Shown in pieces: positions 1-41,611 of a stretch of DNA of 41,611 nt. Origin of the DNA: an uncultured Clostridia bacterium (GTDB lineage: Bacteria > Bacillota > Clostridia > Christensenellales > Borkfalkiaceae); assembly GCA_947629515.1 (NCBI GenBank), contig CANRDY010000010.1, positions 1 to 41,611 of the forward strand, read 5' to 3'. The position numbers and the translations under genes are program-made. A model generated the notes under the pieces. It made no database searches. It saw only the letters and a program-made list of their open reading frames with translations, and was not told the origin of the DNA. Position 1 is the stretch's first letter. Every line of letters begins with the position of its first letter.

Positions 1-36
1 ATATCTTTCATAGAAATATTACTTGCTCCGCGGAGC

Positions 37-77
37 ATTTTGTTGCACGCCTATTCGCCTAAGGCGTGCAACAAAAT
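37..77. other. 15-bp stem-loop in the leader of the giant surface protein gene
   Basis: A perfect inverted repeat, ATTTTGTTGCACGCC paired with GGCGTGCAACAAAAT around an 11-nt loop, lies about 50 bp before the first gene. A smaller palindrome, GCTCCGCGGAGC, sits just before it at 25-36. No U-run follows on either strand, so it may be the end of an upstream gene outside the window or a leader structure. Confidence 0.4.
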
Positions 78-126
78 AAAATTATTGAAAAGCCGCAACG
101 GAGCAGGAGTTTTAAGGGGAAAGATT

Positions 127-3100
127 ATGACAAAAATTAAACAACGCTTGCTTGTTGTTTTGGCGTTTATTTTATGCGCTGTCACGCTGTTGGCGGGACT
201 TTTTTTATTTACGGGAAAAAATTTCCAAAAGGCGGAAGCGTTTGATGGTAAGGAAGCGGTTGATGTAACTGAAATTTATAATAGTAAAATAGGGAAATTT
301 GACCGTGATAAACTTGAAACTATTTTTTCGTATCTAATCGGAAAAACAACTTATAAAGATATAAACGACGCGGCAATGGAAACAATCTCTCATGAAGATT
401 TCAATAGTAAGGACAAAATAATAACTTTTGGCGGACTTAAATGGACACCTGTTTTTTTAACTACCGAAAGAGGCACTTCCAATCCCGATTTGGTTTTATA
501 TTATGCCGGTGCTGATTTGGACGAAATAACTGCTTTCGATCCCAAACATGAAGATAATTCGTGGGAGTTTGTGTCGCCAGCTCTAGGTTTAAATTGGGAC
601 GATTATTATACGAAAAGCAGTATCGATAGTAAATCAGTTGTTATTTACGGCACAAGCTATATGCGAGCATATCTTAATGGTACTCAGTATATAAAGCTTG
701 ATGATCCTGGCAGCCCAACTTTATCAACTTTGTCGGAAGGTCAGGCGGTACAAAACAAAACTTTGAAAAAATTTGTTGATACTTTTGGTTCGAAATATAT
801 TTACACTCCTTCACAGGCAGGTTGGCAGTCAAACGAAAACGTTTTGCAAGACAGTCGGAGTTGGGTTAGTGTTGAATTTAAAAATAACAGTAGTGGTGAC
901 GCATATACGCCACTTGATTATGCTATTCCGAATGAAGCTTTTGGTACGCCATCAAAGGGAACATTGCCTAGTGATTTTACTAGCGCATCACAACTTGCCG
1001 CATATAGTGCTTGGAAAGACGATTATCTTTGGGTACCGAGTTTTTCCGAAATAGGTTGTACAGGTAATTACGGTGCTATGCCTGTTAAACTTAAAGACAG
1101 TAGTGGCAAAGCCCTTAATTATTTTGAGTATTCCGATGTAATATGCAAAGGGATGTTCGGTATTGATTCCGATTCAAAAATATTTCATGAAAATAATGAA
1201 AGATGGCTAAGATCCGGAAGTATAGGTGATAATAGTACTGATAAGGTTGCATTTTCTGATTTGGCTTCTGAGGGCTTATGGAATTATTATGGTATGTCTG
1301 AAGATCAACACTCCAGAGCCAACCCCTGCATACACTTGAACCTTAAAGCTGTTTATGATAATTCGGTTTATATTGTTCCCAACCCGTCGCAGACAAGACC
1401 TCAACAGACTTTTACATATAACGGCGCAGAGCAGTCGATAACCGTAAATCTCAATAAGCACCTCTATTTGTCGAGCAAAACCGAGGGTTCTGACTTTTCG
1501 GGCACGACTTTCAAGGCAAAGAACGTAGGTACATATTATATGAGCGTTCGTTGCAACAGCGACGCGGTTTGGGAAGATACGGGCAACGCGACCGACCCGC
1601 GCTACGCGGCTCAAATTACAATCACCCCCAAACCAATCACACTGAAAATAAGCAGTCCAACGGTTACATACGGCGACGACCCCGCCGCGCTTGCGATAGA
1701 CCCCACGCCGCAGAACAGTACGTCGTTTGCGGAAAAAGAGACAATTGCAAATATTCCCGACATTAATTCCAAAATCAAATTCAACAATGGGTCGTCAAAG
1801 CCCACAAGCACGACCGACAAAGGTTCATATAACCTTACGGCAGATAACGGCGTTATAGGCAATTATAACGTTACTTTCGTTTCCGGTAAATACACCGTAT
1901 CGGCGCGCACGCTGAAAGTCAAGTGGACGGCGAACCCGAACGCCAAGAACTGGAAGGCGTTTAACGGCAGTTCTTCGGTGAGCGAAATCTATTACGACGG
2001 CGCGCACCCCGCGTTCTCAACTACGGCAAGCTCCGAGAATATAGACGCAACTTTCGCCGTAGACACAGCGGGCTTGCCATCGAGTATATCGGCTGAGGCG
2101 GGGAAGTTAGCCCTTAAAATATCGGGCAACTGCAACAAAAAGGACGTGGACGAAACAACGCACTCCACGACCGCCTCGTTCAGCGCAACGCAGACCAACT
2201 ACGTGCTGGACAGTTCGACTACGACAATTCAATATAAAATAGTCGCGCGCCCCGTTACGGTAAAAATCGGTAATTTGCTTGGAACTTCGGGCAGTCAATA
2301 CGGTTCGAACCAAGCCTCGCTTGCGAACGCAAGCATAACACCCGATACCACGGGCAACAAGTTTAACTTTATAGGTTCGGACGGAGCAAGGTCGAACTTC
2401 ACGCTTTCGTGTGCCGTTACAAGCACAAGCGTGCCGGGATACTATCCCATAACGTGCACTTTCGGCGGTTCGAACGAACAGCTTAAAAAGAACTACGAAG
2501 TGACGTTTACGGGCGAGTTCGGCTCGGGTTCTTACACAAACAATACATACTCTGCAAGCAACGGCACGGCGGGCGTATATCAGGTGCGCAACGCGACGAT
2601 CACCGCCAACGCCAACGCCGAAATGCCGCAGAAGTGGACGGTGGACAACAGTGCGGGAACTATCATTATGTCGTACTTCCACGACCACGACGGCGAAAAG
2701 AGGACGTTAGAGGGTGAATGGTTCACCACGAAAAACAGCCAAGCCGTGACTTTGAAGTACTCCGAGACTTCGGAGAGCGGCGCGTGGTCAAATACTATCT
2801 CCGACGCGACCGATCCCAAAACATACACGTATTGGGTGCAGGTTTCGGCGCAGTATCACGACACGCGCGTGTATAAAGTGACGTTCAACGTTACTTCCGA
2901 AAGCGTGACGGTGACGTTCAAGGGCGATAATTTAGCGGAAGCGCAGTACGGCGCGGCACTGCCCCAAGAGGACGCGCTTTGGGCGTTGGTGCAAAGCGTT
3001 GAGGGCTTGCACTTCGAAAACGAGGATTTGGAAGGGCAGAACGCCATTACCAAATTAAAAGATATAATAGAACTTTATCTCACGGACGGGCACGGCGCGC

Positions 3101-6100
3101 TTACGGCGGCGGAGGCTGTTGAGGGCAGTTATGCGATAGCGTTCCGCTTTAAGGGCGGCGAAAGTTCTTCGAACTATATCATTATGCTGAGCAACCAGAC
3201 GGGTAAGTATACCGTTAAGGCGCGCGAGCTGACTTTGGACGATTTAGACTGGGGTCATTTGAACGATATAGGGTTCACAATGGAATACGGCGACGATTTA
3301 GCCGCAGACCATGCGCAACACCACCCCAATCCCGCGTTGAAGGGGGATATAACGAAGCCCGAGAGCGCGGCGAGCCTTTCGAAGGTTTTGACCTTTGAAA
3401 TTTGGCACAAGAACGGCGAAAAGGTGGCGGACGAGCACGCGCACGACGCGGGGCAGTACACCGTTAAAATCACGGGGTTGCCCGACGGCTGGGATAAAAT
3501 GTATAAAGTGTCCGTATCGGGTCTTGAAAAGGACTTTAATATAACGGCTAAGGAAATTTCGCTTACGATAATCAAAGCGCAAAGCACGGCTTATCACGCG
3601 CAGACTTTGGCGGAAATGACCGAGACCCTCAACGACCAGATGATACAATATCTTACGGCGCACGAGGGGCTGCTGGACAGAGATTACGGCTTTATCAAGC
3701 TGACCGTGGAATACACGGGCGAGGGCTACGAAACGCCCGAAACGTGCTACCCGAACGCGGGAAAACTTGTAATAAAGGGCGAAGCGACGGGCACGGCGGC
3801 GACCAACTACGAGATAAGCTGGACGAACGGCGAGTGGGAGATCACCAAGGCGACCAACACGCTGAGCGGAGAATATTCGCGCGCGGATTGGGTGGAGAAA
3901 GGATCGCCCTCGGCTGAGAATAACACGCTTTCGGCGACGTTCGGCGACGGAGTTACATTAAAATATTACACGAAATTCGAGAACGGCGAATACAGCGACC
4001 TCTACGAGGGCGGGTTCGACGAAAACACGCCTAAGGGCACGTACTACGTTAAGGCGTATGTTGCGGGAACGGATAATTACACCGAAATAGACGAATATGT
4101 CGGGCAGTTCGAAGTAACAGACCACAGCGCGCACACGTGGGTGGCGGACGAGGCGAACGGCTGGACGTGGACATGGGACGGCGAGAACAACACCTACACG
4201 GTGAAGCTGACCTTTAAGTGCAGCGCGGGGCTTGAAGAGCACACGCACGAAGAGACCGCGGAAGTAGCGACAGACGATTCGGGCGCGCCGACATGCACGG
4301 AAGAGGGCGACATAAAGTACACGGCGACGGTGACCTACGAAGGCAAGACGTATACGTCGGAAAAGACCGACCACAAAGCGGCAAAGGGACACAGAACGGA
4401 CGCAATGATTTTCCACCCCGAAGTAGCGGCGGAGTGCACGAAAGCGGGATCGGTGCAGTACTACGAGTGCCCCGACTGCCACAGATATTTTGAAGAGAGC
4501 ACGGCGGAAACGGAGATATTCGAGACCGTGGTTGAAGCGACGGGGCACAGCTGGAACGACGGGGTTATAACCAAAGACCCCACGTGCACGGCGGCGGGCG
4601 AGAAGAAAGTTACGTGCACGGCGTGCAACGAAGAAAAGACCGAAGAAGTTGCGGCGTTGGGTCACGATTGGCAGGACGAGAACGTGACGGTTCAGCCGGA
4701 CTGCACGCACACGGGGTTGAAGAATCAGAAGTGCTCGAGGTGCGAAGCCACTCAAAACGATGTGGAAGTGCCCGCGCTGGGGCATAGCTGGAACGCGGGT
4801 GAGGTTACCGACGAGGCGACCTGCACGCACGCGGGAACTAAGACCTACACCTGCGAACGCGACGGTTGCGGCGTGACCCGCACGGAAGTAGTAAAGGCGG
4901 CGGGACACAGGTGGAACGCAGGCACAGAAGAACCGCAACACAGCTGTACGGAGCCGGGGACTATAACCTACGCTTGCGAGGACTGCGGCACGACCCGCAC
5001 GGAGACCGTGCCCGCCCAACACACGTGGGAGACGCAAACGGTAACCAAACCCGCGACGTGCACGGAGAACGGGCTGGAAAATCAGAAGTGCAAGTTCTGC
5101 GAAGAGACCCGCGAGAGCGTTGTGATACCCGCGCTGGGGCATCAGTGGAACGACGGTTCCGTAACAAAAGCGGCGGACTGCACGCACACGGGTACAAAGA
5201 CATACACTTGTACGCGCGGCGGAGATTGCCATGCCGAAAAGACGGAAGAGATACCCGCGCTGGGGCACCTGTGGGACAACGGCACGGTGACGAAAGCGGC
5301 GGACTGCACGCACACGGGTGCAAAGACATATACTTGCACGCGCGGCGGCGACTGCCACGAGACCAGGACGGAAGAAGTGCTTGCGCTGGGACATTCGTGG
5401 ACGGTGGACGAAGTAACGCAGGAACCCGACTGCACGCACACGGGCTTGCAGAACAGACGTTGCACAAGGTGCGACGCGGTTGAAAAGAACGCGGAGATCC
5501 CCGCACTCGGACATGAGTGGGTGGACGGAGCGATAATAAAGCATGCGGACTGCATGCACGCGGGAGCAAAGAATCAGGTGTGCTCGCGTTGCGGTTACGA
5601 GCGTGACGGGGTGGAAATACCCGCGCTCGGACACAGCTGGGATACGGGAACGGTGATAAAAGCCGCCACGTGCGAAGATAGCGGAACGATAGAGTTCAAG
5701 TGCACACGCGCGGGTTGCAACGAGAGTTACACCGACGAGCTCGAAGCAACGGGACACAGCTGGGGGAACGTTATTGTGACCAAAGCCGCCACGTGCGAGG
5801 AGACGGGACTTCAAACGGCAACCTGCCTTGTATGCGGCAAGGAGCAGGAAAATATCGAAATACCCGCGAACGGACACACGTGGGAGGACGGCGAAATAAC
5901 TTCGGCGGCGACCTGCGAGAGCGCGGGCAGCAAGAACAGAGTTTGCACCGTCTGCGGCGAAACCGAGGAGGGGGTTGAAATACCCGCGCTCGGGCACAGC
6001 TGGGACGAGGGCAAAGTGACCCTTGCGCCCACGTGCGACGCCGCGGGTCAGAGAGTGCACACCTGCACGAGGTGCGGGGAGCAGTCCGAGCCCGAGACGA

Positions 6101-6591
6101 TAGCGGCGGCGGGGCACCATTGGGACAACGGCACGGTCGTCAAGTCGCCCAAGTGCGAGAGCGCGGGCGAGACGGTTTACACCTGCACGCGTTGCGGTGA
6201 AATCGAGAGAAAGTACCCCGAAGCGTTGGGGCACGCCGTTGACGCGAACGCATGGGAACGCACCGAAACGAGCCATTGGCAGAGATGTTTAAGGTGCGGC
6301 GAAGAGGTGAACAAACACGCCCATAACTATAACGAGGGCGAAATCACCACTCAACCCACCGAGACCGAGGCGGGCGTTAAGACCTACACCTGCGACGACT
6401 GCGGAATGGAAAAGACCGAAAGCGTTGCACCGACGGGCACAGCGGGCGGCGAAGGCACGGGCGACGGTTCGGGCACGGGCGACGGACCGCTCGACGGTGG
6501 GGATATAGGACCGTTTGTGGTTATAATCGGCGTAGAGGGCGTAATGCTCATAGTGCTCATCGCGGCGGTCGCGGTATTGAAGAGGAGATAA
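127..6591 (+). CDS. Giant exported surface protein: DUF6273-like domain, MBG-like repeats, GHxW/CxxC repeat array, C-terminal membrane anchor
   Basis: A 2154-residue protein with an N-terminal signal peptide (hydrophobic core about residues 8-29, likely cleavage after AEA at 38). Residues about 95-410 resemble the DUF6273 type of extracellular domain, with a LWVPSFSE motif and a WLRSG motif. Beta-rich MBG-like modules (YGDD, NYxITW patterns) run to about 1330. Then follow about fourteen 40-residue units that begin GHxW and carry two CxxC-like cysteine pairs (1473-2034), a Gly/Asp-rich linker, and a final hydrophobic helix (about 2128-2151) ending KRR. No LPXTG sorting motif is visible, so the helix is probably the anchor. 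ATG 127 was chosen over ATG 40 because it directly precedes the signal peptide and follows the purine-rich AAGGGGAAAG. The first 1.3 kb is visibly more AT-rich than the rest. A role in adhesion or wall structure is inferred. Confidence 0.85.
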   Translation: MTKIKQRLLVVLAFILCAVTLLAGLFLFTGKNFQKAEAFDGKEAVDVTEIYNSKIGKFDRDKLETIFSYLIGKTTYKDINDAAMETISHEDFNSKDKIITFGGLKWTPVFLTTERGTSNPDLVLYYAGADLDEITAFDPKHEDNSWEFVSPALGLNWDDYYTKSSIDSKSVVIYGTSYMRAYLNGTQYIKLDDPGSPTLSTLSEGQAVQNKTLKKFVDTFGSKYIYTPSQAGWQSNENVLQDSRSWVSVEFKNNSSGDAYTPLDYAIPNEAFGTPSKGTLPSDFTSASQLAAYSAWKDDYLWVPSFSEIGCTGNYGAMPVKLKDSSGKALNYFEYSDVICKGMFGIDSDSKIFHENNERWLRSGSIGDNSTDKVAFSDLASEGLWNYYGMSEDQHSRANPCIHLNLKAVYDNSVYIVPNPSQTRPQQTFTYNGAEQSITVNLNKHLYLSSKTEGSDFSGTTFKAKNVGTYYMSVRCNSDAVWEDTGNATDPRYAAQITITPKPITLKISSPTVTYGDDPAALAIDPTPQNSTSFAEKETIANIPDINSKIKFNNGSSKPTSTTDKGSYNLTADNGVIGNYNVTFVSGKYTVSARTLKVKWTANPNAKNWKAFNGSSSVSEIYYDGAHPAFSTTASSENIDATFAVDTAGLPSSISAEAGKLALKISGNCNKKDVDETTHSTTASFSATQTNYVLDSSTTTIQYKIVARPVTVKIGNLLGTSGSQYGSNQASLANASITPDTTGNKFNFIGSDGARSNFTLSCAVTSTSVPGYYPITCTFGGSNEQLKKNYEVTFTGEFGSGSYTNNTYSASNGTAGVYQVRNATITANANAEMPQKWTVDNSAGTIIMSYFHDHDGEKRTLEGEWFTTKNSQAVTLKYSETSESGAWSNTISDATDPKTYTYWVQVSAQYHDTRVYKVTFNVTSESVTVTFKGDNLAEAQYGAALPQEDALWALVQSVEGLHFENEDLEGQNAITKLKDIIELYLTDGHGALTAAEAVEGSYAIAFRFKGGESSSNYIIMLSNQTGKYTVKARELTLDDLDWGHLNDIGFTMEYGDDLAADHAQHHPNPALKGDITKPESAASLSKVLTFEIWHKNGEKVADEHAHDAGQYTVKITGLPDGWDKMYKVSVSGLEKDFNITAKEISLTIIKAQSTAYHAQTLAEMTETLNDQMIQYLTAHEGLLDRDYGFIKLTVEYTGEGYETPETCYPNAGKLVIKGEATGTAATNYEISWTNGEWEITKATNTLSGEYSRADWVEKGSPSAENNTLSATFGDGVTLKYYTKFENGEYSDLYEGGFDENTPKGTYYVKAYVAGTDNYTEIDEYVGQFEVTDHSAHTWVADEANGWTWTWDGENNTYTVKLTFKCSAGLEEHTHEETAEVATDDSGAPTCTEEGDIKYTATVTYEGKTYTSEKTDHKAAKGHRTDAMIFHPEVAAECTKAGSVQYYECPDCHRYFEESTAETEIFETVVEATGHSWNDGVITKDPTCTAAGEKKVTCTACNEEKTEEVAALGHDWQDENVTVQPDCTHTGLKNQKCSRCEATQNDVEVPALGHSWNAGEVTDEATCTHAGTKTYTCERDGCGVTRTEVVKAAGHRWNAGTEEPQHSCTEPGTITYACEDCGTTRTETVPAQHTWETQTVTKPATCTENGLENQKCKFCEETRESVVIPALGHQWNDGSVTKAADCTHTGTKTYTCTRGGDCHAEKTEEIPALGHLWDNGTVTKAADCTHTGAKTYTCTRGGDCHETRTEEVLALGHSWTVDEVTQEPDCTHTGLQNRRCTRCDAVEKNAEIPALGHEWVDGAIIKHADCMHAGAKNQVCSRCGYERDGVEIPALGHSWDTGTVIKAATCEDSGTIEFKCTRAGCNESYTDELEATGHSWGNVIVTKAATCEETGLQTATCLVCGKEQENIEIPANGHTWEDGEITSAATCESAGSKNRVCTVCGETEEGVEIPALGHSWDEGKVTLAPTCDAAGQRVHTCTRCGEQSEPETIAAAGHHWDNGTVVKSPKCESAGETVYTCTRCGEIERKYPEALGHAVDANAWERTETSHWQRCLRCGEEVNKHAHNYNEGEITTQPTETEAGVKTYTCDDCGMEKTESVAPTGTAGGEGTGDGSGTGDGPLDGGDIGPFVVIIGVEGVMLIVLIAAVAVLKRR
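4543..6228 (+). repeat. In-gene array of about 14 GHxW/CxxC repeat units
   Basis: The coding sequence repeats a unit of about 120 bp. Each encodes GHxW, a central Cys (often CTHTG or CTxAG), then a CxxC or CxxxxC pair and an IPAL/VPAL-like end. Two central units (about 5146-5390) are nearly identical at DNA level, which suggests recent duplication. Two degenerate units without GHxW follow. Confidence 0.85.
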
Positions 6592-34437: not shown

Positions 34438-34760
34438 AACCCCCACCTTCAATTCCTCCCCCTTACCAAGGGGGAGGGAATAAGGAAAAAATATTCGCTC
34501 ACTTTCTGGAAAATAACTTTTTACTATTCGCTCCCCTTCGCTTGCGAGGGGGAGCTGTCCGCGAAGCGGACTGAGGGGGTGTATTCCAAATATTATCGGA
34601 GCGAAATCAGCCACTGTCATTTCGAACGCTATGAGAAGCCCGCGAAGCGGGTTCGCGCGAGGGCGAACGCCCGACGCTCTGCCGAGGGTTCCCGCTTGCG
34701 TGAAACGGCAGATTAAGTGAGAGAATCCCCCCGTGGTCTGTGCTTGCTCTTTGAAACGCG
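34438..34760. repeat. Composite dispersed repeat, full-length form
   Basis: In order: a CCTCCCCCTTACCAAGGGGGAGG hairpin block; ATTCGCTCCCC with the two-hairpin module (GCTCCCC...GGGGAGC; GTCCGC-GAA-GCGGAC); the box TTCCAAATATTATCGGAGC; GCCACTGTCATTTCGAACGC; nested GC hairpins (CCCGC-GAA-GCGGG and further arms); and an end reading GTGGTCTGTGCTTGCTCTTT. No gene is seen inside. The first 104 bases recur exactly at 34808-34911. The stretch from 34345 to 34437 holds only short repeats such as GTCCAATGTCCAAT. Confidence 0.8.
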
Positions 34761-34807
34761 AACAAAAAGCAATCTTTAATTAAGCGTTCTTGCGCGGTAC
34801 TGCTGTG

Positions 34808-35200
34808 AACCCCCACCTTCAATTCCTCCCCCTTACCAAGGGGGAGGGAATAAGGAAAAAATATTCGCTCACTTTCTGGAAAATAACTTTTTACTATTCG
34901 CTCCCCTTCGCGGCAAGCCGCGAGGGGGAGCTGTCCGCGAAGCGGACTGAGGGGGTGTATTCCAAATATTATCGGACTATATTATGGCACTGTCATTTCG
35001 AGGGATATGAGACCCGCGAAAGCGGGCGATTGACCGAGAGAATCCCCCCCGTGGTCTGTGCTTGCTCTTTGAAACGTGAACAAAAAAAACCGCTCGTTCA
35101 TTGCCTCTTGCTTGCTCCCGCTACCCCTACCCTCGCCCTCCCCCTCCGAAGCGGAAGGGGAGGGAAAGTTGGTAAGAATAGGGGGAGGGAACACAAGGGA
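34808..35200. repeat. Composite dispersed repeat, second copy, plus trailing fragments
   Basis: It repeats the preceding element with a 104-bp exact match at its start, a 6-bp insertion in the first hairpin, and a further 56-bp exact match through the ATTATCGGA box. It then diverges to a GAGGGATATGAGACCCGCG form with a shorter hairpin region and the same GTGGTCTGTGCTTGCTCTTT end. At 35113-35200 follow CCCTCGCCCTCCCCCTCC/GGAAGGGGAGGG fragments. No gene is seen. Confidence 0.8.
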
Positions 35201-35220
35201 GGGGGGGTCGTCGTGTTTGC

Positions 35221-35270
35221 GCTCCGATAATATTTAAAAAAGCGGCGGGCGGCGATACGCCGCCCGCCGC
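35221..35270. terminator. Inverted TATCGGAGC box with adjoining GC-rich hairpin
   Basis: GCTCCGATAATATTTAAA is the dispersed box on the minus strand. It is followed by a perfect 13-bp stem, GCGGCGGGCGGCG-ATA-CGCCGCCCGCCGC. The same pairing of box and hairpin occurs at 31975-32033. Confidence 0.6.
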
Positions 35271-35303
35271 AGGACGACGGGACGAAAAACTTTCTTAATA
35301 CAC

Positions 35304-35332
35304 TTGACAAACGATAATAAATATCTTATAAT
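35304..35332 (+). promoter_or_regulatory. Consensus promoter of a small + strand RNA
   Basis: TTGACA, exactly 17 bp, TATAAT, with no reading frame of any size downstream before a terminator. Confidence 0.85.
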
Positions 35333-35338
35333 AAAATC

Positions 35339-35425
35339 ACAACAAGGGTAAACCCTAAACGGTTAGCCCCGTGGTCGATTAAAAATAACCGCCGTTCGAC
35401 GCCAATCTCGGGCGGTTATTTTTTT
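35339..35425 (+). ncRNA. Predicted small RNA, candidate antisense antitoxin
   Basis: The RNA would start near 35339 from a perfect promoter and end at the hairpin AAAAATAACCGCC / GGCGGTTATTTTT (35381-35423) followed by T's, giving about 87 nt. It contains no usable reading frame. Its 3' arm is complementary to the last codons and stop of the opposite-strand 34-codon gene, and the hairpin can terminate both strands. Its 5' end (CAACAAGGGT, then CGGTTA, then CCCCGT) matches, in the same order, the 5' end of the opposite transcript. This layout resembles type I toxin-antitoxin loci; function is inferred. Confidence 0.65.
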
Positions 35426-35520
35426 ATTGTCAAGAAAATTTTATCTTTCGTGACGCGGATAACCTCTATGTACCCCTCGTCGAGCAAGCCCAACAGAAAG
35501 AGTATAAGCTCTATCCTCAT
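35416..35520 (-). CDS. 34-residue hydrophobic peptide, candidate type I toxin
   Basis: A minus-strand reading frame beginning MRIELILFLLGLLDEG and ending FLTIKK. The N-terminal half is hydrophobic and the C-terminal half basic, as in small membrane-active toxins, but I do not recognise the family. It has its own promoter and a strong ribosome site (AAGGGGGG, 10 nt before ATG), which lies in a CCCC-GTAA-GGGG hairpin that could hide it. The stop codon lies in the shared bidirectional terminator, where it overlaps the opposite-strand RNA. It could instead be a non-toxic small protein or chance frame. Confidence 0.6.
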   Translation of the reverse strand: MRIELILFLLGLLDEGYIEVIRVTKDKIFLTIKK

Positions 35521-35587
35521 AAAAATTTCACCCCCCTTACGGGGCATGATTTAACCGCCTTCGGGAAACCCTTGTTGCTTGTTTTTA

Positions 35588-35616
35588 ATTTTATTCCTCT
35601 TGTCATTATTTGTCAA
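35588..35616 (-). promoter_or_regulatory. Promoter of the 34-residue peptide gene
   Basis: On the minus strand TTGACA, 17 bp, TAAAAT. The start is expected near 35580, giving a leader of about 60 nt that begins AAGCAACAAGGGT. Confidence 0.8.
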
Positions 35617-35769
35617 GAGGTTTTTTATTGTTTTATAAAATATCGCCCGCGCGCATTATGTTGTACGATATTGCCCGTTTTCACCCTTTCTTTTTCTCCC
35701 ATGCGCGGGGTTTTGCCGAAAAATATTAACTTTTTTTGTTAATCATAATAAAAAATTTGGTTCATAGTA

Positions 35770-35798
35770 TTGAAAAAAATATATGCGTATGCTATAAT
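35770..35798 (+). promoter_or_regulatory. Promoter of the signal peptidase-AAA operon
   Basis: TTGAAA, 17 bp, TATAAT, about 33 bp before the start codon. The region 35617-35769 before it shows nothing recognised. Confidence 0.75.
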
Positions 35799-35830
35799 AA
35801 TGAATGATAATTTATAAGGCGTAGTTTTTT

Positions 35831-37042
35831 ATGGAAGCACAAAAAAAGCAAAAAGTCCAAAAAGTTCTCAGCATTGTATTAAATGTGCTCGTCGCGATCA
35901 TTCTCGTGCTTGCGCTTGTCGTTACTATCAATAACATAATTTCCTCGCAAAAAGGCTACACGTCTTATTTCGGTACGGCATTCGTCACCGTCGAAAGCGA
36001 ATCGATGAACGCCGAAAAACCCGCCGAGTACCCCGACGCCCTCAACGGCTTCGCCCCCGGCGATCTGCTTACCGTTAAAGTCCTCGAGGGCGACGACCTT
36101 AAAAACCTCAAAGAGGGCGACATAGTTTCGTTCTACCTTGACGTTATCGACGGCAACGGCACAAAACACACCATAATCAACTCGCACCGTATCATAAAGG
36201 TTGAACCCGCGGGCAGTAAGGTGACCTATCAGACCAAGGGCGACAACAACGACGTCCAAGACCCTTATCAGGTGTACACCGACGGCGTTAAGGGCAATTA
36301 TCAGGCAATAGGCGTAGTCACGGGCAACGCGGGCGGAATAGGCAAAGTGTTCCAATTTTTCCGCTCCTCGACGGGCTTCCTTGTGTGCGTGGTAGTTCCC
36401 TCGTTCCTCGTGGTCGCGTACTTCGCGTTCAACCTTATACGCGAGATAATGAAGAACCGTAAACTTGCGAGCGTAAACCAAAAGGCGCAGATGAAAGAAG
36501 AGCTTTTAGCCGAACTCCGCGAGCAAGGTCTTATAACCGAACCCGCCGCAGAACAAGCGACGGATCAGACGGCGCAGGGCGAACAGCCGCCCGAGCAGTC
36601 GGCGGAAAAAGCGGCGGAGCAACCCGCCCAAGCCGAAGTGCAAGCGGCAGTTATAGCAACCGCCCAAGCCGAGGAACAGCCCGCAACCGAACAGCCGACC
36701 GAAGCCCCCGCAGAGGTCGCCGCAGAACCCGCAGAACCCGCCGCAGAGGCGGTCGCGGAACAGTCCGCGCAAGAGGAAGTTCAAACAACCGCGCAAGCGG
36801 CGGTTCAGCCCGAAGAAACTCCCGCCGAAACAGCCGCCGAGCCCGCGGAAGCTTCCAAGCCCGCCGCACCTAAAAAACCCGCCGCCAAAAAGCCCGCCGC
36901 TAAAACGACGGCTAAAAAGTCAACTTCAACGCAAAAGAAGCCCGCAACGCAGAAAAAAACTTCGGCAAAGAAGCCCGCGGCGGGCGGCACGAAAAAGCCT
37001 TCTACCAAGACTTCAACCGCTAAAAACGTAACAAAGAAATAA
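35831..37042 (+). CDS. SipW-like signal peptidase I with long cytosolic low-complexity tail
   Basis: A 403-residue protein. A transmembrane helix at about 12-37 is followed by an extracytoplasmic catalytic region and a second helix at about 177-205. The catalytic serine is in VESESMN (Ser58). The second motif is SHRIIKVE, with His119 in place of the bacterial-type lysine, as in SipW and archaeal/ER-type enzymes. It should cleave signal peptides of TasA-like proteins outside the membrane. The tail of about 195 residues is unusual: a short coiled coil, Glu/Gln/Pro/Ala repeats, then a strongly basic end built of KKPAAKK-like units as in histone-H1-like tails. The ribosome site is weak (AAGGCG). 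The AAA+ gene follows after 22 nt. Confidence 0.88.
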   Translation: MEAQKKQKVQKVLSIVLNVLVAIILVLALVVTINNIISSQKGYTSYFGTAFVTVESESMNAEKPAEYPDALNGFAPGDLLTVKVLEGDDLKNLKEGDIVSFYLDVIDGNGTKHTIINSHRIIKVEPAGSKVTYQTKGDNNDVQDPYQVYTDGVKGNYQAIGVVTGNAGGIGKVFQFFRSSTGFLVCVVVPSFLVVAYFAFNLIREIMKNRKLASVNQKAQMKEELLAELREQGLITEPAAEQATDQTAQGEQPPEQSAEKAAEQPAQAEVQAAVIATAQAEEQPATEQPTEAPAEVAAEPAEPAAEAVAEQSAQEEVQTTAQAAVQPEETPAETAAEPAEASKPAAPKKPAAKKPAAKTTAKKSTSTQKKPATQKKTSAKKPAAGGTKKPSTKTSTAKNVTKK

Positions 37043-41254: not shown

Positions 41255-41611
41255 AAAAACATTCGCTCCCCCTCGCGGCACGCCGCGAGGGGGAGCTGTT
41301 GCATTATATTACTTCTTATTCGCGCCCCTTCATTTATGAGGGGGAGCTGTCTGCGAAGCAGACTGAGGGGGTGTTTTCTAAATATTATCGTAGCAACATA
41401 AGGAACTGTCATTTCGAGGGGTATGAGACCCGCGAAAGCGGGTTCGCGCGAGGGCGTAAGCCCGACGCTCTGCCGAGGGTTCCCGCTTGCGGGAAACGGC
41501 AGATTGACCTGGGGTTCTCGCGCGGCGTAAAGAACAACGCCGCGCTCGGTCACCGCTTGCGCCTTGCACTATGCGCAAGCTCATCTCGTGCGGCAAAACA
41601 GCGGGTGTCCG
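41255..41611. repeat. Composite dispersed repeat running off the window end
   Basis: It starts with a 15-bp hairpin, GCTCCCCCTCGCGGC / GCCGCGAGGGGGAGC (41265-41296), which may also end the operon. Next are ATTCGCGCCCC with the two-hairpin module (GTCTGC-GAA-GCAGAC), the box TTCTAAATATTATCGTAGC, AACTGTCATTTCGAGGGG, and the nested GC hairpin region (CGCGCGAGGGCG...GACGCTCTGCCG). Beyond 41510 it changes to a different, hairpin-rich sequence. No gene is seen. Confidence 0.75.

Follow-up and report, generated by a model that had tools for sequence, protein, structure and literature searches.

Do the two promoters that face each other at positions 35304–35616 of a contig from an uncultured Clostridia bacterium drive a toxin and its antisense RNA? 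The window, i.e., the whole stretch of DNA analyzed here (41,611 nucleotides), had been annotated from its letters alone, and this first-pass annotation proposed a candidate type I toxin–antitoxin locus. We put the probability that the locus is a chromosomal type I toxin–antitoxin locus at roughly 0.8, a reading supported by selection on the peptide frame, recurrence of the unit and the occurrence of the RNA unit beside Hol_Tox-like peptides. The features of the locus are as follows.

35304..35332, plus strand: promoter of the small RNA, TTGACA-17-TATAAT (12/12 matches), conserved in A1
35616..35588, minus strand: promoter of the peptide mRNA, TTGACA-17-TAAAAT (11/12 matches)
35521..35581, minus strand: 5′ leader of the peptide mRNA (predicted start), beginning like the small RNA with CAACAAGGG..CGGTTA
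35529..35544, minus strand: SD G run in a CCCC-GTAA-GGGG hairpin, the hairpin itself at 35533–35544
35416..35520, minus strand: 34-codon class A peptide ORF, MRIELILFLLGLLDEGYIEVIRVTKDKIFLTIKK, with its stop TAA (35416–35418) within the terminator
35381..35426, both strands: bidirectional intrinsic terminator with a 13-bp stem, the zone of complementarity between both RNAs
~35339..~35426, plus strand: candidate antitoxin small RNA of ~88 nt (predicted ends, the start taken from the −10 box)
35242..35270, minus strand: strong GC hairpin and T run on the mRNA strand, a possible end of read-through mRNA whose membership in the locus is uncertain

Two opposed near-consensus promoters ~255 bp apart had been described, and this was borne out: both sites have 17-bp spacers, and the two −10 boxes are spaced by 255 bp. 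Six promoter-like sites were counted in 34800–36100 vs 2.0 in shuffled sequences; given this excess and the recurrence of the whole unit with a promoter on each side, the facing-promoter layout is more than chance. The arms of the terminator (35381–35393 and 35411–35423) form a 13-bp stem of 100% complementarity, conserved in A1, and the TAA of the peptide sits inside one arm, confirming the annotated single bidirectional terminator that holds the peptide stop. Convergent promoters and a common terminator also give the two predicted RNAs the complementary 3′ ends that had been noticed; because the terminator is common and bidirectional, their 3′ terminator loops would be fully complementary. 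The ribosome site was likewise found in its hairpin, as the minus-strand SD G run overlaps 35533–35544, and the non-coding RNA, annotated as ~87 nt, measures ~88 nt by its predicted ends. The description of the product as a hydrophobic and basic peptide of 34 codons held for its length and only partly for its character: it is slightly basic (6 K/R, 5 D/E), and strong hydrophobicity is limited to the N-terminal part.

Plus-strand sequences of 23 loci served to build a small-RNA model, R1. It scored the small RNA of the window with 126 bits (E = 1.2e-28), a value to be read with the window row being part of the model, and also fitted the minus-strand promoter and leader (35616–35518, E = 1.7e-5). 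Since R1 matches both strands of the unit, the unit is nearly symmetric; its leaders contain an inverted repeat (35340–35365 and 35552–35577) of 73% complementarity.

In the toxin–antitoxin reading, the minus-strand promoter would produce an mRNA for the 34-residue peptide, which would harm its own cell if over-produced, and the plus-strand promoter would produce an antisense RNA of ~88 nt. Pairing would begin at the 3′ terminator loops and may expose the mRNA to RNase III, close the ribosome site, or both; the ribosome site is probably already partly hidden by the local hairpin. The small size of the peptide and the hairpin around its ribosome site might instead point to a leader peptide with a regulatory role, or to a peptide that is secreted as a signal or resembles a bacteriocin. 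However, the predicted mRNA stops where the peptide frame itself stops, and therefore would control no downstream gene in cis; moreover, no obvious common neighbour was seen at the six loci whose neighbouring ORFs were listed (ten neighbours scanned with Pfam), so that the probability of this explanation is close to nil.

Synonymous bias in the peptide frame, named beforehand in the first-pass annotation as a refutation test, was clearly present. Among 45 distinct 34-codon class A genes, the 213/990 pairs at 60–99% identity showed pN 0.168, pS 0.502 and pN/pS 0.336, with pN < pS in 213/213 pairs, which are not independent because the genes are related; the same pairs gave pN/pS of 0.93 (frame +1) and 1.67 (frame +2). 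In class B, represented by 21 35-codon genes and 124/210 pairs, pN/pS was 0.442 with pN < pS in 123/124 pairs, and 0.82 and 1.54 in frames +1 and +2, and five 33-codon class A genes showed 0.61 (7 pairs). The start codon and the last three codons were excluded, and therefore the terminator does not drive this signal. The peptide frame is under purifying selection. Such selection would also fit a small protein conserved for a useful, non-toxic function, e.g., as a regulator associated with the membrane, with a cis-antisense RNA tuning its amount.

A search of related genomes with the peptide and the whole unit, as the first-pass annotation had suggested, revealed that the layout recurs in many of them. 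The 1.7-Mb genome of the window itself contains 10 R1 matches at E ≤ 1e-5 (14 candidates scored); the unit DNA matches three places in it and the peptide four. Across the taxonomic family, the peptide matched at E ≤ 1 in 21/201 genomes, the unit DNA at E ≤ 0.1 in 135/201 (mostly short weak pieces) and R1 at E ≤ 0.01 in 262/398 (many close to the threshold), and the R1 matches listed in the family, down to E = 1.6e-13, cover > 100 places. Several dispersed copies per genome, as seen among the matches listed, speak against the useful small protein.

The fetched loci yielded 94 units, each with a distinct small RNA, sufficient upstream sequence and an SD-led ORF that ends in the terminator; 89 belong to the family and 5 come from other parts of the order (one of the 94, L146, is a misread frame). 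Units without an SD-led ORF were left out and tallied separately. A peptide-side promoter scoring at least 9.5, a feature absent from R1, was present in 88/94 units vs 6.4% of shuffled leaders, and the small-RNA promoter, though part of R1, was good in 94/94. In the order, R1 matched at E ≤ 1e-6 in 16/396 genomes; eight of these lie outside the family, of which six carry TM-like peptides, G458 an amphipathic one and G531 class A peptides. At E ≤ 1e-5, 53/245 genomes of the class and 9/239 of the phylum were matched, the genome of the window counted in both. Thirty-five farther R1 loci were fetched from the class and phylum searches (the window's genome omitted; a few overlap), and 26 of them have an SD-led ORF of 18–45 codons ending in the terminator, compared with 56/2633 stop codons elsewhere in the same loci; 9/35 have no ORF by this rule. 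In the named genome set, one exact small-RNA pattern hit 8 contigs from 6 assemblies, every one of them a MAG labelled "Clostridia bacterium" or "uncultured Clostridia bacterium".

The inverted leaders and −35 boxes and the many dispersed, some tandem, copies could also point to a selfish palindrome of MITE-like type, bounded by terminal inverted repeats, in which the ORF would be incidental. The strong coding constraint speaks against an incidental ORF, as do against a mobile element the blastn searches at E ≤ 0.01, with 0/50,697 phage records and 1/72,556 plasmid records matched, and we regard this explanation as highly improbable. A phage or plasmid origin of the locus was rejected on the same searches, and one exact pattern of the small RNA was found in 0 viral contigs. 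The single plasmid record belongs to Monoglobus pectinilyticus, a named gut species in culture. It carries four tandem R1 units (NZ_OY725742.1, L262:2333–3527; E 9e-16 to 9e-18), three of which encode the 22-aa TM-like peptide MEYVYIIIFMIVFITLIESIKK, the fourth lying outside the listed stretch; the PLSDB gene table, which is incomplete, has no gene at these units. The tandem units of M. pectinilyticus would make the group accessible to experiment.

The small RNA was also found where the peptide is lost. Among 112 same-family RNA units, 3 were excluded (no room or N), and an intact SD-led peptide ORF was missing in 20 of the remaining 109 by a heuristic ORF test, at least two of the 20 (L046 and L146) looking like single frameshifts; in several, only C-terminal residues remain, preceded by foreign sequence. 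From the peptide side, 15/16 matches at E ≤ 0.01 have an RNA unit, and in the exception, L063, the ORF extends beyond its usual end into other sequence close to the contig end. This asymmetry is biased because the loci were mostly gathered with the RNA model, and RNA kept while the peptide is lost is thus no more than suggestive of toxicity of the predicted toxin. Copies with the RNA and no peptide speak, again, against a small protein kept for a useful role.

The peptide can differ between units with closely related RNAs. G097 contains two units whose small RNAs are identical over the first 38 nt past the −10 box, one encoding a class A and the other a class B peptide, and they are sisters on the RNA tree (98/92; 105 columns, 46/90 inner branches unresolved), on which at least 5 changes of peptide kind are needed within the family. 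Type II toxin–antitoxin genes lie near some units, namely PemK in the genome of the window and YafQ/RelB and Fic in G292. In the latter (L125, G292:C12:1–6500), four RNA units, none with its peptide ORF intact, stand ~1 kb apart and alternate with minus-strand gene pairs including YafQ/RelB, adjoined by Fic; this region looks like a toxin–antitoxin island.

Class A peptides (33–36 aa) have a hydrophobic N-terminal part followed typically by G-x-I-x-S-x-x-VTKDKI-xxx-IKK, and class B peptides (32–38 aa) have a leucine-rich amphipathic stretch followed by IEYIAIKRxKK. TM-like peptides occur inside the family in G023/G062 and G011, and the R1 matches outside the family mostly carry TM-like peptides of 20–37 aa. 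The best 17-residue Kyte–Doolittle mean averaged 2.48 in 33 TM-type peptides (range 1.74–3.57; ≥ 2.0 in 29/33), which were hand-picked to include the same-family G011 and omit the amphipathic G458 peptide and the class A peptides of G531. Class A averaged 1.60 (≥ 2.0 in 4/55 distinct peptides, class A being the default label, so that the divergent L191, L194 and L032 are counted in it) and class B 0.95 (≥ 2.0 in 0/25). The window peptide, at 1.81, falls within the TM-type range at its low end. As 51/55 class A and 25/25 class B peptides lie under 2.0, the usual membrane action is not implied. Judged from sequence, class A peptides look like a short amphipathic helix in their N-terminal part, followed by a C-terminal hairpin with KK at its end, and our guess is that such a shape would be better suited to an intracellular target or to binding at the surface of the membrane than to a simple transmembrane pore.

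The window peptide had been called unlike any known one, and it indeed has no family match in Pfam, NCBIfam or PHROGs; ten representative peptides searched against the same three collections reached E 0.087 at best. Two peptide families of the window's clade, without a name in any of the three, stand where a transmembrane peptide is found otherwise, and they are mostly less hydrophobic. The lack of a toxin-family match and a hydropathy mostly below that of TM-type peptides favor the small-protein explanation, as does the purifying selection. However, the same RNA unit elsewhere carries Hol_Tox-like and other short TM-like peptides, and this, with the copy number and the peptide losses described above, leaves a useful small protein an unlikely explanation.

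The type I toxin–antitoxin reading is connected to known toxins through G514. Its five R1 matches (best E = 1.8e-13) are overlapped or touched by its five Hol_Tox (PF16935) matches, 3 over and 2 under the Pfam cut-off, and any Hol_Tox match was found in 3/297 genomes. The peptide of two C50 copies in G514 scores 31.9 bits vs the Hol_Tox cut-off of 23.3 and also matches PepG1 under its cut-off; its hydropathy is 2.36, a comparison with the 1.81 of the window peptide on the hydropathy scale only. One of the 33 TM-type peptides matches Hol_Tox (Pfam), with PepG1 and ComI (NCBIfam) matched under their cut-offs, and the window peptide has no PF16935 match over the cut-off in the Pfam profile search. 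The annotated novelty of the system therefore stands for the peptide families of this clade and not for the RNA frame, which belongs to a wide group including the Hol_Tox loci. Against Rfam, the unit matched no family over the cut-off, and nothing relevant was found at ten further loci; the best known model on the whole unit was BsrG (RF01412), with 25.9 bits under its 55-bit cut-off, and the same model gave 37.4 bits at L200. A T-box leader just under the Rfam cut-off (87 of 93 bits) was noticed near Hol_Tox units at L200:2048–2292.

The locus resembles the Hol_Tox group, i.e., TxpA, BsrG and PepG1 with SR4 and RatA, in its convergent toxin and RNA, predicted 3′-end pairing, SD in a hairpin and K-rich C terminus; TxpA, BsrG and PepG1 are all grouped, as we take it, with PF16935. 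Unlike the Bacillus subtilis pairs, for which PMC6562991 gives 100–140 bp of complementarity, the shared part here is about the terminator. With Fst/par of pAD1, as presented in PMC7472228, it has in common convergent promoters, a short peptide (33 aa in the toxin Fst), a common bidirectional terminator and an SD-sequestering stem. In contrast to Fst, the window peptide has no PXXXG motif and no proline at all, and compared with the Fst direct repeats DRa/DRb, which provide a second complementary region, there are short direct repeats of 8 nt (TAACCGCC) and 10 nt (a GGTAAACCCT-like pair), the longest leader repeat being inverted. The C. difficile pairs CD2517.1–RCd8, CD2907.1–RCd9 and CD0956.2–RCd10 are similar in convergent overlap, small peptide and charged C terminus; their toxins are longer, at 50–53 aa, with a predicted TM domain and demonstrated membrane localisation, according to PMC6563280. 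No description of the present family was found in the literature searched, which covered few subscription journals and included PMC6563280, PMC6562991, PMC7472228, PMC5608710 and PMC8309996.

We tentatively consider a broader idea, in which an antidote RNA frame (promoter, CGGTTAGCC-type leader and TAACCGC-type terminator with the toxin stop) is conserved over the class and a few lineages of the phylum, and unrelated short peptides are swapped into it. In most lineages these would be TM-like, and the two large families of this uncultured clade that are not plainly so may represent a new type I toxin action on an inner or membrane-surface target. A precedent for such a swap is given by bsrG/SR4 loci with BsrH/E in place of BsrG (PMC6562991). 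PMC8309996 divides type I toxins into membrane peptides of small size and a cytosolic category with two members, RalR and SymE, which act without membrane insertion. RalR and SymE cleave DNA or RNA, and nothing in the 34 residues here would hint at a nuclease. Such a family, with many copies, a single antidote frame and several kinds of peptide, would provide a test of what an antidote RNA must keep, how toxins get exchanged and whether small type I toxins have further targets.

The two leaders of a unit resemble each other more than those of different units. In 45 non-redundant units out of 88, the mean local score between mRNA and RNA leader was 13.69 within units vs 9.74 between units, the maximum of 5000 permutations being 11.0, and other taxonomic families have, by eye, different leaders that are again common to both RNAs (L197/L210, L199, L200 and L202). 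Selection for mutual pairing was rejected as the cause, as the duplex was −20.25 within units vs −21.16 between units and 98% of 5000 permutations were at least as stable. A possible cause is 5′–3′ pairing of read-through mRNA, as in the Rfam structure of BsrG; alternatively, a quasi-palindrome may have undergone mutational correction. The mRNA leader and the RNA terminator arm share an exact complement of 6.66 nt on average vs 4.50 nt in shuffles (at least 7 nt in 24/41 units). Among the first 60 units, pairing of the mRNA leader was weakly favored both with the RNA leader (−25.27 vs −22.67 shuffled; 43/60 under the shuffled mean) and with the terminator (−24.52 vs −23.25; 40/60). At least 4 of 5 SD bases are paired in the MFE fold of 77/88 leaders (mean 4.43 vs 3.39 shuffled). 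The U-turn motif in terminator loops was rejected as a hallmark, its presence in 71/88 vs 66.5% of shuffles being a mild excess. Some peptide mRNAs (e.g., L037, L039, L054, L072 and L183) show, by eye, an additional small 5′ hairpin reminiscent of the upstream helix in Fst RNA I.

Other features of the window were noted in passing. Two tRNAs and a Gut-1 RNA (RF01706; 32128–32213, minus strand) pass the Rfam cut-offs in the window; a Gut-1-like RNA was rejected as an identity for the locus, since the match lies 3 kb off with none at the locus itself. The genome of the window has 42 Gut-1 matches at E ≤ 10, 21 of them over the Rfam cut-off, and weak matches occur in 9/14 control genomes, none over the cut-off; the phrase "Gut-1 RNA" was not found in the literature searched. 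A dispersed intergenic repeat was recognized by eye at 34500–34620 and 34870–34980, with perhaps a third copy near 41300, judged from a similar ORF translation alone. A reading frame that is already open where the window begins spans 1–6591 (2183 aa when counted from its first TTG); by eye, it has ~15 GHxW/C-x2-C repeats and a hydrophobic C terminus.
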